Position numbers and translations under genes: made by a program | Assembly (NCBI RefSeq): GCF_014202505.1 | Contig: NZ_JACHGW010000003.1 | Coordinates: 744,001-808,000 of the forward strand | From: Armatimonas rosea | GTDB lineage: Bacteria > Armatimonadota > Armatimonadia > Armatimonadales > Armatimonadaceae | Direction: 5' to 3' | Length of the DNA: 64,000 nucleotides | The notes under the pieces: generated by a model | Databases searched by the model: none | Told to the model about the DNA's origin: nothing | What the model saw: the letters and a program-made list of their open reading frames with translations, nothing else | Part shown: positions 10,242-45,302 of the stretch, piece after piece | How positions within the stretch are numbered: the stretch's first letter is position 1 | Layout: each line of letters begins with the position of its first letter

Positions 10242-10601
10242 ATGAAACGCTGGCTGAGCACTCTCTTTAAGCCCGCTCCTTCTGTGCCTGCAGAGCCTCT
10301 CCCGCCGTCTCCTGATCAGCTCCGGGCTTGGGAGCTCTCGGAAGCGGAGTGGGTGCGGGAGAAGCTGATGAAGACACCGCTCAATCGGCTGATAACCATT
10401 CACGGTATCCCGGTCAAGATAAAGATGGAGCTCGCGGCGCAAGGGGTTTCCAACATTCAGGAGCTGGTTCAGAGCTGGGACACGCTTCGTATTTCTCCGC
10501 CCTATCGAGCGATGGTTGGGAGCTGGTTAGAGGAGCTACAGGATGACTTACAGAAGCAGTATGCAGAGTTTACTGCCACAAAGCCGGAACGACTTGCTTA
10601 G
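10242..10601 (+). CDS. Small helix-hairpin-helix-like protein, paralogue 1
   Basis: 119 aa, function unknown. It begins MKRWLSTLFK, continues with a Pro-rich linker (about residues 10-30), then a helical domain with WVREKL, the HhH-like turn IHGIPVKIKMELAAQGV, and a C-terminal helix ending LQKQYAEF. It aligns along its length with the 126-aa protein at 12525 (shared WV.E.L, I.GI, GI..I/LQ..., W...L). The two paralogues flank a HAF-repeat lipoprotein on the same strand. The HhH-like fold suggests nucleic-acid or protein binding, but no catalytic domain is present. Function is not assigned. Confidence 0.75.
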   Translation: MKRWLSTLFKPAPSVPAEPLPPSPDQLRAWELSEAEWVREKLMKTPLNRLITIHGIPVKIKMELAAQGVSNIQELVQSWDTLRISPPYRAMVGSWLEELQDDLQKQYAEFTATKPERLA

Positions 10602-24239: not shown

Positions 24240-24320
24240 CCTCCCAAAATTCTCCCCGATTGGGGGAGCCTACACTCGGAACTAGATGCCGCGTATTCTA
24301 CCAGATTTTTTACAAAATGG

Positions 24321-24326
24321 TATAAA
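24321..24326 (+). promoter_or_regulatory. -10-like hexamer of glnD
   Basis: TATAAA preceded by GG ends 10 nt before the GTG at 24337. Confidence 0.4.
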
Positions 24327-24336
24327 ACTTCTTATT

Positions 24337-26973
24337 GTGTCCAATTCTCTCCACACCACTGCTCTTGCCTCGCTTCGCGAGGAGCGCTCCCTCACCGACT
24401 ACCTGATCCAGGCGCGGGCGGAGCTGCGTGCCCGCTGGCTCCCCGAGACCGGGGGGCGAGCCTGGGCACAGGCACATAGCGACCTGCTCGATGCGGTGCT
24501 CCGACGCTTGCTAAGCCTTGCGGCGGAGCGCTCGGGGCAGAGCCCCCAGGGGATCGCTCTGCTCGCAACCGGAGGCTACGGACAGAGAGCCCTGGCTCCC
24601 TACTCCGATGTGGACCTGACCTTCTTGGTGGACCGCGACGATGACCCGCCGCTGCTCCGGGAGGCGTTTCGCCTCGTGATGGATGTCCTGATGGCCGGTG
24701 CCCGCATTAAAGTGGGCTACGCCTATCGCCATATCTCAGAGATCGGAGGAGACCGGCTGGATCATCAGACCCAGACCGCACTTCTCTCCGCTCGCCTGAT
24801 CGCGGGCGATGGTGCGCTCTTTGCCCGTTTTGATCGCATCTATGGCCCCGGCCTTCACATTGCGGACTTCCTTTTTCGAAAAATTTCGGAGCGGGAGCGA
24901 ATCCGGCAGAAAATGGGGACATCACCCTACCTGGTGGAGCCTGAGCTCAAAGAAGGCGCAGGAGGGCTACGCGACATTCAAACGGCGCTCTGGATGGCAC
25001 GTGCACGCTTCGATAAGACCGGAGACTCGCTCTGGCGGGAGCTGGTGCGCCGGCATATCCTCACGGCATCGGAGAAGACACGCCTACAAGAGGCACGGGA
25101 GCACCTCTATAAGATTCGAAACCTCCTGCACCTACTCACCGACGAGCGCCGGGACCGGCTGAGCACGTCGCGGCAAGAGGAGATCGCCGCCCGGCTGGGA
25201 ATCACCGACGAGGGAGGCATTCCCGCGGTCGAGGTGTTCATGCAGCGCCACTACCAGCGGACCGGGGATATCTACCACCTCTCGGAGAAGATCATGCAGC
25301 GCTGCCTGGAGGCCCCGCTCGCGCTGGGAACGGACTCGGGGCTGGCGTCGCTGCGCCGCACGGTGATTGTCGCCGAGCCACGCCGGGTCGCGGCCGATCC
25401 CCACTGGCCCCTCGCGGCTCTCGAGTTTTGCCAGCGCTACGAGCTAGAGCTCGCCCCCGCGACCATCGAGGCAATCGAGGAGCTGGTGGACAAAGAGGGG
25501 CTCTCGACCGACTCCGGGACCCGCTTTCTCAACCTGCTGATGCAGCCCGGCGATGTGGAGCAGACCCTGCGGCGGATGCACCGCACGGGTCTTCTTCGAG
25601 CGCTCCTCCCTGAGCTGGACGCCTGTATGGGGCTCGTTCCCTACGACCCCGCGCATGTCTGGACCGTGGGGGAGCACACGCTTCGGGTCCTGCAGAACCT
25701 CACCCGCCTGCGCCCCGACGCCCCCCCCGACTCTGGTGTCCCTGCAAACTACCGCGAGGTGTTCGCATCGCTGGAGTCGCCCGCGACTCTCTACCTGGGA
25801 GCCCTGCTCCACGACCTGGGCAAGCAGTGGCCCACCCTGCTCGACGGCACCCGCGCGCCCCACGAGCTCACCGGTGCCGAGCGGGCGACCGCACTCTGTG
25901 AGCGTCTTGGGGCCTACCCCCAGAGGGCCGAGAGCGCGGTCTTTCTGGTGCGCTGGCACTTGCTCCTGGCCGAGCTCTCCCGCCTGCGCGACCTGACCCG
26001 CCCGGAGACGATCCGTGAGGTGCTGCGGCATGTCCCCGATGCGGATCACCTCAAGATGCTCTACTTGCTGACCTGGGCGGATACCTCGGCGGTGGGCCCC
26101 GGGGTCTGGACCGACATGACCGCCCGCCTCCTGGATGAGCTCTTTGGCCGCACGCTTGGGGCACTGGAGAGCGACCAGCCCGACGAAGACGATCCCGATG
26201 AGGCGGCGCGTCGCCTGGACGGTCTGCGCGGGCGGCTGCGGCGCCGCTTGGCCTCGCACGCGACCGAGGAGGAGAGCGCGGCGATCCAGAGCCACACCAA
26301 CGCCATGCCCGCGGCCTATCTCCTCAACACATCCCTGGAGACCATGACCCTCCACCTGGCGATGATCGGAGCACTGACCAGCGGGGAGGCGGAGCACGGG
26401 GTGGTCGCCGATCTGCGGACGCTTCCCGGCACGGAGCAGACCGAGCTCACGCTGGTGGCCTACGACGACCCCGCGCCGGGGCTCTTGGCCAAGATCACGG
26501 GCGTACTCTACGCCTACGACATCCGCCTCCACGCGGCGCAGGTCTTCACTCGGCCCGCGGAGGGGGAGTCCGGGCGCGCGATTGTCGTGGACACGCTGGT
26601 GATCGACCACCGGGACCAGCCACTGGACCGCAACATGCGTGGGGAGCTCGCTACCGCGCTGGGAAAGGCCTTGGGCGGTGAGGAGCCCATCCCTGAGCTC
26701 CTCGCCCGCCGCCGCCGCCCGGAGCCGTCGCTGGGCACGCTACAGAACCTCCGCCTGGAGCCCACCGATGGTGACCACACGCTGCTGGATGTGATCGTCC
26801 CCCGCGGCCCCGGCGCGATCCACGCTCTCCTCCGCACGGTCACTGCCCAAGGCTGGAACATCCACGCCGCCCGCCTCTCCACCTGGGCCGGACTAATCCG
26901 CTGTGCGCTCTACCTCTCGGAGGCAACCCCGGGCGCGGGTGGGGACTTGAAGGCGGCGCTGTCCGGGGGCTGA
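24337..26973 (+). CDS. glnD: PII uridylyltransferase / uridylyl-removing enzyme
   Basis: About 878 aa from GTG 24337 (895 from ATG 24286). GlnD adds and removes UMP on PII signal proteins in response to glutamine. Domains: nucleotidyltransferase (GGYGQRALAPYSDVDLTFLV), HD hydrolase (HVWTVGEHTLRVLQ, LGALLHDLGKQWP), and two C-terminal ACT domains (LVAYDDPAPGLLAKITGVLY; VPRGPGAIHALLRTVTAQG). The GTG start is preferred because TATAAA lies 10 nt upstream and family similarity begins soon after. The last residues SGG and the TGA stop lie inside the left arm of the large inverted repeat, so the element supplied the gene's 3' end. Confidence 0.95.
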   Translation: MSNSLHTTALASLREERSLTDYLIQARAELRARWLPETGGRAWAQAHSDLLDAVLRRLLSLAAERSGQSPQGIALLATGGYGQRALAPYSDVDLTFLVDRDDDPPLLREAFRLVMDVLMAGARIKVGYAYRHISEIGGDRLDHQTQTALLSARLIAGDGALFARFDRIYGPGLHIADFLFRKISERERIRQKMGTSPYLVEPELKEGAGGLRDIQTALWMARARFDKTGDSLWRELVRRHILTASEKTRLQEAREHLYKIRNLLHLLTDERRDRLSTSRQEEIAARLGITDEGGIPAVEVFMQRHYQRTGDIYHLSEKIMQRCLEAPLALGTDSGLASLRRTVIVAEPRRVAADPHWPLAALEFCQRYELELAPATIEAIEELVDKEGLSTDSGTRFLNLLMQPGDVEQTLRRMHRTGLLRALLPELDACMGLVPYDPAHVWTVGEHTLRVLQNLTRLRPDAPPDSGVPANYREVFASLESPATLYLGALLHDLGKQWPTLLDGTRAPHELTGAERATALCERLGAYPQRAESAVFLVRWHLLLAELSRLRDLTRPETIREVLRHVPDADHLKMLYLLTWADTSAVGPGVWTDMTARLLDELFGRTLGALESDQPDEDDPDEAARRLDGLRGRLRRRLASHATEEESAAIQSHTNAMPAAYLLNTSLETMTLHLAMIGALTSGEAEHGVVADLRTLPGTEQTELTLVAYDDPAPGLLAKITGVLYAYDIRLHAAQVFTRPAEGESGRAIVVDTLVIDHRDQPLDRNMRGELATALGKALGGEEPIPELLARRRRPEPSLGTLQNLRLEPTDGDHTLLDVIVPRGPGAIHALLRTVTAQGWNIHAARLSTWAGLIRCALYLSEATPGAGGDLKAALSGG

Positions 26974-27079
26974 AGTCCCCGGCAGCAGTTGGGGAGCGTC
27001 CCGAGGACGCATAGAGAATATTGTCTTTTGCGCCCACGGGGCGCTCTTGCCTGCTGCCGGGGACTTCAGCCCCCGGACA
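26960..27079. repeat. Palindromic mobile-like element B (REPIN-like, perfect 29-bp arms)
   Basis: Two perfectly complementary 29-nt arms (26960-26988 and 27051-27079; each arm contains an imperfect CCGGGG/TCCCCGG palindrome) enclose two hairpins: GCGTCC/GGACGC near 26996-27010 and GCGCCC/GGGCGC near 27030-27044. The left arm contains the glnD TGA stop; the right arm ends 10 bp from the uvrC stop, so the element fills the convergent spacer. It shares its architecture with element A at 2224-2327. It may also work as a bidirectional terminator. Confidence 0.85.
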
Positions 27080-27088
27080 ATTCCCGCA

Positions 27089-28936
27089 CTACGCCCCCTT
27101 CAGATAGTCAAACACCTCTTGGGCGAGCTTGGCGTTCATTCCGGGGGCCTTGGCGAGCTCGACCGCGCTGGCTTTCTTCATCTTGGCGACACTGCCAAAG
27201 AACTTCAGCAGGTTCTTGCGCCGCAGGGGGCCGATTCCGGGGATCTCGTCGAGGATACTCATGTTGGCGGCGCGGCCACGGACATTTCTATGGTAGGTGA
27301 TCGCCCAGCGGTGGACTTCGTCGCGGACCCGCTGCAAGAGAAACAGAGCGGGGGCGTTGCGTGGGAACTCGATGGGCTCGTGGGCGCCCGGGAGGAAGAC
27401 CTGCTCATATTGTTTGGCGAGGCCGATCATCGGGAAGTCGTAGCCGAACTGCTTCATGGCGTCCTGGGCGGCGGAGAGCTGCCCTTTGCCGCCATCGACC
27501 ACGATCAGGCTGGGCTGCTGGGTGAACTTGGGGTTACCCTCGGCCATCTGCGCGAAGCGGCGCGTGAGCACCTCGAACATCATCGCAAAGTCATTGGGGG
27601 TGTTGTCAGGGAGGCTCTCGATCTTGAAGCGGCGGTACTCGCTCTTCTTGGGCTTGCCCCGCTCGAAGACCACCATCCCGCCGACCGCGTGGCGCCCCTG
27701 GACATTGGAGTTGTCGTAGGCCTCGATCCGGTGGAGGGAGTTCTCCGGCATCCCCAGCGCCGTCGCCAGCTCTAAAAGCGCCCCGTCGATCCGGCTCTGC
27801 TCCGCCGCCGCGACCGCGCGGAGCTGTGTGAGTGCCTGCTCCGCATTCGCCGACGCCAGCTCCATCAGGCGCTTCTTCTCACCGCGCTCGGGGACAGAGA
27901 GGGTGACTTTCGCGCCGCGTTTTTGCCGCAGCCAGCTCTCGATAATCTCGGTCTCCTCCACGTGGGTGGGCAGGAGAATCTCCCCGGGGACAAAGCTGGC
28001 GTCTTGGTAGTAGCGCTTCAGAAACTCCGCGGTCGCCTCGCCCACACCGTCCTCGGCACCGTCGAGCAAGAAATGCTCCTGCCCGATCAGCTTGCCGCCG
28101 CGGATAAAGAACATCTGCACCGCCGCCCCGGTCTCGTCGGCGACCACGGCCATGACGTCCTGGTCGCCGGTCGTGGTGCTGACCACTTTCTGCCGCTCGA
28201 CAATCGTGTTGATGGCTACCAATTGATCCCGTAGCTTGGCCGCGCGCTCGAACTCTAAGTTCTCCGCGGCGGTCTCCATCTTCGCCTGCAGGTTCTTCGC
28301 CAGCGAGTCCTGCCGGCCTTGGAGAAAGACCTCGGTGTCTTTGACCGTCTGGGCATAGCGCTCCTTATCGGCGAGCCCGGCGCAGGGCGCTTCCGGGCAG
28401 CGGCCCATGTGGTGGTACAGACACGGCTTCTGCTCGACCTTGTTGGTCCACTCCTTCTTGCAGGTCACGAGCGGGAAGACACGGTAGATCAGATCGACGG
28501 AGTCCCGCACGGCCGCGCCATTCGTATACGGCCCAAAGTACTTATTCCCATCACCCTGCTTCACTCTCCGGGTAATCAGCACCCGCGGAAACGGCTCGCT
28601 GGTCGTCAGCATCAGATAGGGGTATTGCTTGTCGTCCCTGAGTCGGACGTTGTACTTGGGCTGGTGCTTCTTGATCAGGTTGCACTCTAGGATCAGCGCC
28701 TCCAGCTCGGTATCCGTCAGCACCCAGTCCATATCGACAATATTGGCGACCAGCTTGCGTGTCTTGGGCGTGTGGTTGGCCGACTTTTGAAAGTACGAGC
28801 GCACTCGGTTCCTGAGATTGATCGCCTTACCGACATAGATAATCTGCCCCTCTTTATCTTTGTAGAGGTAGCACCCCGGGTTGGTCGGGAGGTTCTTGAG
28901 CTTTTCTTCAAGCGTCAGCGGCGCAGGCGAGGACAT
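27089..28936 (-). CDS. uvrC: Excinuclease ABC subunit C
   Basis: 615 aa, normal UvrC length. N-terminal GIY-YIG nuclease (NPGCYLYKD, IIYVGKAINLRNRVRSY), a UvrB-interacting UVR region (AKMETAAENLEFERAAKLRD), the RNase H-like C-terminal nuclease (IEAYDNSNVQGRHAVGGMVV, LIVVDGGKGQL), and a terminal (HhH)2 domain (EIPGIGPLRRKNLLKFFGS). It makes the dual incisions in nucleotide-excision repair. TACAAT ends 8 nt before the ATG with no Shine-Dalgarno. Confidence 0.97.
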   Translation of the reverse strand: MSSPAPLTLEEKLKNLPTNPGCYLYKDKEGQIIYVGKAINLRNRVRSYFQKSANHTPKTRKLVANIVDMDWVLTDTELEALILECNLIKKHQPKYNVRLRDDKQYPYLMLTTSEPFPRVLITRRVKQGDGNKYFGPYTNGAAVRDSVDLIYRVFPLVTCKKEWTNKVEQKPCLYHHMGRCPEAPCAGLADKERYAQTVKDTEVFLQGRQDSLAKNLQAKMETAAENLEFERAAKLRDQLVAINTIVERQKVVSTTTGDQDVMAVVADETGAAVQMFFIRGGKLIGQEHFLLDGAEDGVGEATAEFLKRYYQDASFVPGEILLPTHVEETEIIESWLRQKRGAKVTLSVPERGEKKRLMELASANAEQALTQLRAVAAAEQSRIDGALLELATALGMPENSLHRIEAYDNSNVQGRHAVGGMVVFERGKPKKSEYRRFKIESLPDNTPNDFAMMFEVLTRRFAQMAEGNPKFTQQPSLIVVDGGKGQLSAAQDAMKQFGYDFPMIGLAKQYEQVFLPGAHEPIEFPRNAPALFLLQRVRDEVHRWAITYHRNVRGRAANMSILDEIPGIGPLRRKNLLKFFGSVAKMKKASAVELAKAPGMNAKLAQEVFDYLKGA

Positions 28937-45245: not shown

Positions 45246-45281
45246 AGGGTACCCGGCCTTTGTTGCGCCGCGCTCTCTAGC

Positions 45282-45302
45282 CCCCCCGTTCTGATCGGGG
45301 GG
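45282..45302. repeat. C6G/CG6 interspersed hairpin
   Basis: Perfect 7-bp stem CCCCCCG/CGGGGGG with 7-nt loop, preceded by CTAG. Belongs with the hairpins at 48627, 49859 and 58136. No T-tract. Confidence 0.55.

Follow-up and report, generated by a model that had tools for sequence, protein, structure and literature searches.

A dispersed palindromic element at gene 3' ends in Armatimonas rosea shares its arms with a Y1 transposase that carries the signature of TnpA_Y1 subclass 1.2

The palindromic element between the convergent genes glnD and uvrC of Armatimonas rosea is very probably a REPIN- or MITE-like non-autonomous mobile repeat of a previously unpaired transposase class. The observations show an element that is palindromic, non-autonomous and scattered through the genome, and that lands at gene 3' ends. 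Its family, here called family I, comprises about 90 copies in this Armatimonadota genome, as judged from matches to a family model and counts of an inner-hairpin core. The window analysed is a stretch of 64,000 nucleotides (contig NZ_JACHGW010000003.1, positions 744,001 to 808,000, forward strand), and the features of the junction are listed in its coordinates.

26960..27079, no strand: whole element, a family I copy with the hairpin plan A-B-loop-B'-A' (perfect arms, fold, model match)
26960..26988, plus strand: left perfect arm TGTCCGGGGGCTGAAGTCCCCGGCAGCAG, exact reverse complement of 27051-27079
26963..26982, plus strand: left A hairpin CCGGGGGCTGAAGTCCCCGG, helix 1 of the family alignment, 89% of cells paired
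26996..27010, plus strand: left B hairpin GCGTCCCGAGGACGC, GCGTCC-CGA-GGACGC, helix 2, 99.6% of cells paired, T-A/C-G co-change
27011..27029, no strand: central loop, 19 nt, variable
27030..27044, minus strand: right B' hairpin GCGCCCACGGGGCGC, GCGCCC-ACG-GGGCGC, helix 3, 99.2% of cells paired
27057..27076, minus strand: right A' hairpin CCGGGGACTTCAGCCCCCGG, helix 4, 91.9% of cells paired
27051..27079, minus strand: right perfect arm, exact reverse complement of the left arm
24286..26973, plus strand: glnD, 895 aa, stop codon from the element
27089..28936, minus strand: uvrC, 615 aa, convergent with glnD, its end 9 bp from the element

An earlier note on this DNA had described two exactly complementary 29-nt arms, two further hairpins between them, and a glnD reading frame that closes with Ser-Gly-Gly-stop inside the left arm, and all three are present. 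It had placed the right arm 10 bp from uvrC; the actual gap to the uvrC stop is 9 bp. The glnD stop codon, a TGA at 26971-26973, is the loop of the left A hairpin, and the protein ends in ...ALSGG*, compared with ...ALSSPAG* in a same-genus relative. The uvrC orthologue in the same-genus genome G001 is 93% identical. The fold energy of a 131-nt stretch is -106.9 kcal/mol, against -54.1 +/- 4.1 kcal/mol for shuffled sequences (z -12.9, 0/200). An Rfam search of the window returned tRNA only.

The earlier note had asked for a genome-wide search for the arm, and this revealed a dispersed family rather than a structure confined to glnD. With 161 nt around the element as the query, 58 genome matches were obtained at E<=1e-3, and the 17-base core of the inner hairpin (B) occurs 183 times in the genome, compared with once for the reversed control pattern; the structure at glnD is thus not a product of chance. 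A family model, built from an alignment of 41 copies that all come from this genome, gives at least 150 scored matches on both strands at about 80 sites (weakest E 4e-18). Its match at the glnD copy (G000:C3:770962-771077) scores 113 bits, with that copy included in the model. The B core has 0 occurrences in three relatives, the same-genus genome among them, which together with the core counts makes about 90 copies a fair estimate.

The copies (75 were available with flanking sequence) share a common plan of a hairpin A like CCGGGGATTGAAATCCCCGG, a short spacer, a hairpin B with the consensus GCG[T/C]CC-CGN-GG[A/G]CGC, a loop, and then B' and A'. Loop length is 13-21 nt, mostly 18-21 nt, in 43 copies. 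Identity among copies has a median of 74% and reaches 92% in the best pair; there are no near-identical copies, and therefore no sign of a very recent burst. Next to one arm or to both, many copies have an additional half-hairpin A (GCCGGGGATTG) on the outer side (for example L012:3460-3500, L023 and L052); these pieces are sometimes tandemly repeated, and they blur the exact ends of the copies and any target duplication. They may be the mark of cutting in the A loop, or may reflect nested insertions. Two copies, at G000:C1:1694328-1694462 and C2:1537747-1537882, are found near where two large contigs end, and the repeat may have broken the assembly there.

In view of the perfect arms at glnD, it might be expected that a long fold-back is the structure under selection. 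The pair counts rule this out. In the four local hairpins 94.0% of alignment cells are paired, against 87.6% after shuffling, with a covariation score of 0.173 versus 0.069 that was reached in 0 of 500 shuffles. For the long fold-back the pairing is 85.8% against 85.6%, and the score was reached in 97/500 shuffles. Relatedness of the rows can inflate a shuffle test of this kind, but the same rows were used to score the local and the fold-back structures. Co-change is best seen at the fourth base pair of hairpin B: within an arm, T-A is exchanged for C-G as a unit, while the left arm and the right arm change independently of each other. The two arms of a copy resemble each other to the same degree as random arms do (medians 0.755 and 0.755). 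As the pair changes follow the four local hairpins and not the fold-back, the perfect arms are peculiar to the glnD copy. Identical arms, which the earlier note had named, if found in multiple copies, as support for mobility, are therefore not a family trait. The local covariation would also fit hairpins that act as RNA.

Placement relative to genes was assessed with a simple codon-usage gene caller, which gives approximate calls and is not a published annotation. By these calls, 25 of the 73 intergenic copies lie between convergent genes, 34 between tandem and 14 between divergent genes, and one further copy is inside a gene. The distance to a flanking 3' end has a median of 3.5 nt, with 76/84 within 20 nt, compared with a median of 50 nt and 12/62 within 20 nt for flanking 5' ends. 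For 21 of the 84 gene ends the stop codon lies inside the outer hairpin of the element, and 20 of these stops are TGA or TAA. Placement at 3' ends and the supply of stop codons are known for GTAG and CGTC REPs (PMC3733652). A preference for TAG stops as targets was considered and set aside, the difference (43/63 adjacent stops versus 58/114 elsewhere) being too weak.

Evidence for mobility comes from the same-genus genome, a draft MAG in which seven orthologous places could be aligned; family I was found at 0/7 of them. Two are clean empty sites: 141 nt at L023 (site GTGTAGCCGGGTACAAT) correspond to 0 nt in G001, and 168 nt at L072 correspond to 23 nt. At L026 and L030 the counterpart of the element in G001 is an ordinary intrinsic terminator, and at L074 the difference between the genomes exceeds the element alone. 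The orthologue of L067 (L283 around 10282-10348) has a single A-like hairpin in place of the full element, which could be a solo remnant or a precursor. At one empty site a GGG is possibly shared by both junctions; few sites are clean enough for a target-site duplication to be read. The earlier proposal of a non-autonomous palindromic element that lands at 3' gene ends is well borne out by the copy number, the empty sites and the distances to gene ends. Its expectation of empty orthologous sites holds for L023 and L072, but not for the glnD-uvrC junction itself, which in G001 is occupied by a hairpin element of about 147 nt from a different family. The element is thus not conserved at this junction across the clade.

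The G001 junction element is itself multicopy. Used as a query, it identified dozens of places in both genomes (40 candidates were scored in each), so that the glnD-uvrC junction holds different families in two sister species. In the present genome this second family brackets a Y1 gene of its own (C3:381942-382286), with matches at C3:381800-381869 and C3:382348-382410. The unit as a whole (G000:C3:381800-382410; L086:2794-3417) has 68-nt inverted arms that are 87% complementary. A lone hairpin of the same family, CCCCCCGTTCTGATCGGGGGG, stands right after a stop codon at 45280-45302 of the window. Yet another arm sequence is found at L046, where a further Y1 gene lies between near-perfect inverted arms of about 45 bp. 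The genome seems to host several transposase-arm families.

The autonomous counterpart of family I would be the unit in which the same arms bracket a single-gene HUH/Y1 transposase, outside the window at G000:C1:1548167-1548595. Two family I copies flank this gene and a third copy follows 1.2 kb further on; the outermost arms of the bracketing pair agree without a mismatch over at least 45 nt. A Pfam search gives seven Y1_Tnp matches in the genome, and the other Y1 genes, 44-49% identical to the bracketed one, are associated with inverted repeats or hairpins of their own sequence. The bracketed transposase has 143 aa, with Pfam Y1_Tnp (85 bits) as the sole domain found, and among NCBIfam models it scores 74.3 bits for IS200 (cut-off 55) and 25.2 for REP_Tyr_transpos (cut-off 80). 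It aligns with the IS200/IS605 TnpA structures PDB 2ec2, 2f4f, 2xm3 and 2a6m, and its YVERQ falls opposite YIESQ of 2xm3. The motifs MPDHVHLVV, RWQDGY and YVERQKEHH provide the DHVH, WQ and Y---Q--HH elements of the signature DH[IV]H, WQ, Y---Q--HH published for TnpA_Y1 subclass 1.2 (Quentin et al. 2018, Table 1, PMC6006769). The protein therefore matches subclass 1.2 by its signature motifs. The 2018 description of this subclass is of low-copy genes that lack a recognisable substrate; its members were reported as 'REP: no', generally without terminal structures, and mostly from Cyanobacteria and Bacteroidetes (PMC6006769).

The closest homologues of the transposase are found in other genera and families of Armatimonadota, and the nearest of these, from Abditibacteriaceae and other Armatimonadota, are enclosed or adjoined by inverted arms of several hairpins. 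In L091/L120 (Abditibacteriaceae) and L117 the element model itself has matches to either side of the homologue gene, and in L092/L121 to one side. The gene of L117 is framed by 65-nt arms and takes the place that the loop has in the short element. Among 61 genomes, model matches occur in all three that have the closest enzymes (G000, G006 and G022) and in 4/58 others. In one genome (G051, 69% complete), matches on contigs C16, C34, C223 and C261 occur without a close transposase homologue.

An arm survey of 80 loci from a named collection, with 76 testable genes of the subclass 1.2 type, extends the association. Inverted hairpin arms flank 28/76 genes, compared with 0/442 random placements and 1/186 neighbouring genes. 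They are present at 4/5 Armatimonadota and 9/9 Planctomycetota loci, in a number of Bacteroidota and in few Flavobacterium; most Flavobacterium subclass 1.2 genes are without flanking arms. The outer hairpins of the surveyed loci look alike (CCACGGGTTTCAACCCGTGG, AGCCCACGGTTTCAACCGTGGGCT) and recur in some of the surveyed genomes, with zero counts for reversed-pattern controls. Such arms depart from the published account of the subclass as free of REPs and terminal hairpins, which is a description by its authors rather than a requirement of the signature. No earlier report of repeats of subclass 1.2 or of REPs in Armatimonadota was found in the open-access literature.

A host function between convergent genes, either in terminating transcription from both directions or in stabilising mRNA 3' ends, with no mobility, would account for the position of the copies at 3' ends, a third of them (25/73) between convergent genes, and for the ordinary terminators that G001 has at two element loci. 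This is nevertheless unlikely. The family is sequence-specific, with some 90 copies, and its core is missing from the same-genus genome, which has clean empty sites. No intrinsic terminator was called in the element, a T run of at least 4 follows the B hairpin in only 20/148 arms, the long fold-back is not what is maintained, and 14 copies lie between divergent genes. The simple conserved terminator that the earlier note had named as a refuting outcome finds no support at the junction, given the other family there in G001. A terminator role could coexist with mobility, by exaptation.

Two further readings, which concern the enzyme, both appear very improbable. The first takes family I for a classical REPIN with a RAYT (TnpA_REP, class 2) as its mover, for which inverted hairpin pairs, intergenic location, 3'-end bias, stops supplied by the element and a flanked transposase would all be typical (PMC3733652, PMC6006769). 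The GTAG REP class is excluded by the absence of its foot (GT[AG]G in 9/148 arms versus 5/148 in a control window), and the CGTC class by the occurrence of CGTC only within the paired B stem. The enzyme is below the cut-off for REP_Tyr_transpos and above that for IS200, it has Y---Q--HH and not Y---NP, and the arms at the remaining Y1_Tnp genes do not belong to family I. The RAYT that the earlier note had suggested looking for is thus replaced by an IS200-like Y1 transposase that is bracketed by copies; the likeness to REPINs holds for the inverted hairpin pairs and the many intergenic copies, but not for a strict REPIN/RAYT pair. The other reading, equally improbable, is that the short copies are internal deletion products of an ordinary IS200/IS605 insertion sequence, as the matches to IS200 models and to IS200/IS605 crystal structures might suggest. 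No tnpB-like product was seen among the flanking open reading frames, read by eye; the other Y1 genes are too divergent (44-49%) to be IS copies, and the arms are symmetrical and inverted instead of forming distinct left and right ends.

For the preferred reading, a non-autonomous mobile repeat of a subclass 1.2 enzyme, a route of transposition can be outlined. It is from the linkage that we infer mobilisation by this enzyme. Each arm would fold into its local hairpins while the locus is single-stranded, as on the lagging-strand template. With the two arms in inverted order, each strand shows one arm in each sense, a situation, shared with REPINs, that a strand-specific enzyme would have to handle. 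The transposase would bind the hairpins on both arms, its tyrosine would cut at the hairpin feet, and the element would be excised and rejoined elsewhere. Such single-strand action on folded arms is proposed by analogy with IS608/ISDra2 and TnpA_REP (PMC6006769, PMC8266576). Surviving insertions would be those just past stop codons, where they are tolerated and may double as 3'-end hairpins, with a putative role as RNA. A TGA or TAA in the loop of the A hairpin can close an invaded reading frame, as in glnD.

More generally, it is rather probable that subclass 1.2 as a whole consists of enzymes dedicated to a third REP-like system. This system would carry neither GTAG nor CGTC tags, would be defined by inverted hairpin arms (the outer hairpin often resembling CCxGGG.TTTCAA.CCCxGG), would extend over at least Armatimonadota, Planctomycetota and Bacteroidota, and could expand at the 3' ends of genes to families of about a hundred copies. 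The arms offer a concrete, testable substrate for subclass 1.2 in three phyla. The differences in hairpin sequence between genomes, with the fold kept, amount to a natural experiment. At least two families occupy gene ends in one genome, and a convergent junction differs between sister species.

Compared with known systems, family I resembles REPINs and REPtrons (PMC3116915, PMC6006769), with which it shares short hairpins in inverted pairs that recur between genes tens to hundreds of times, a Y1 gene of its own flanked by copies, one repeat family per enzyme with several families per genome, and the 3'-end bias with supplied stop codons. It differs in its arms of two (elsewhere three) tandem hairpins, the missing GTAG foot and an enzyme outside class 2. 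With TnpA_Y1 subclass 1.2 (PMC6006769) the transposase shares motifs, length (about 143-152 aa), low copy number and low within-genome identity; the hairpin arms and large repeat family in Armatimonadota, and the arms in Planctomycetota and Bacteroidota, are different. TIRtrons (Di Nocera et al. 2013, PMC3733652) also have a Y1 gene set within long inverted repeats that are partly self-complementary, together with copies dispersed elsewhere, but TIRYTs belong mainly to subclass 2.1, with another Y motif and a C-terminal HTH, whereas the present 143-aa protein has only Y1_Tnp and Y---Q--HH. From IS200/IS605 elements (IS608, ISDra2), with which it has in common the transposase family, the HUH motif and a catalytic Tyr with Gln four residues on, the system is set apart by the lack of a visible tnpB and of near-identical copies, and by the inverted multi-hairpin arms. 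The short element itself has the attributes of a MITE: inverted terminal arms, no gene, and the same arms on a gene-bearing unit.
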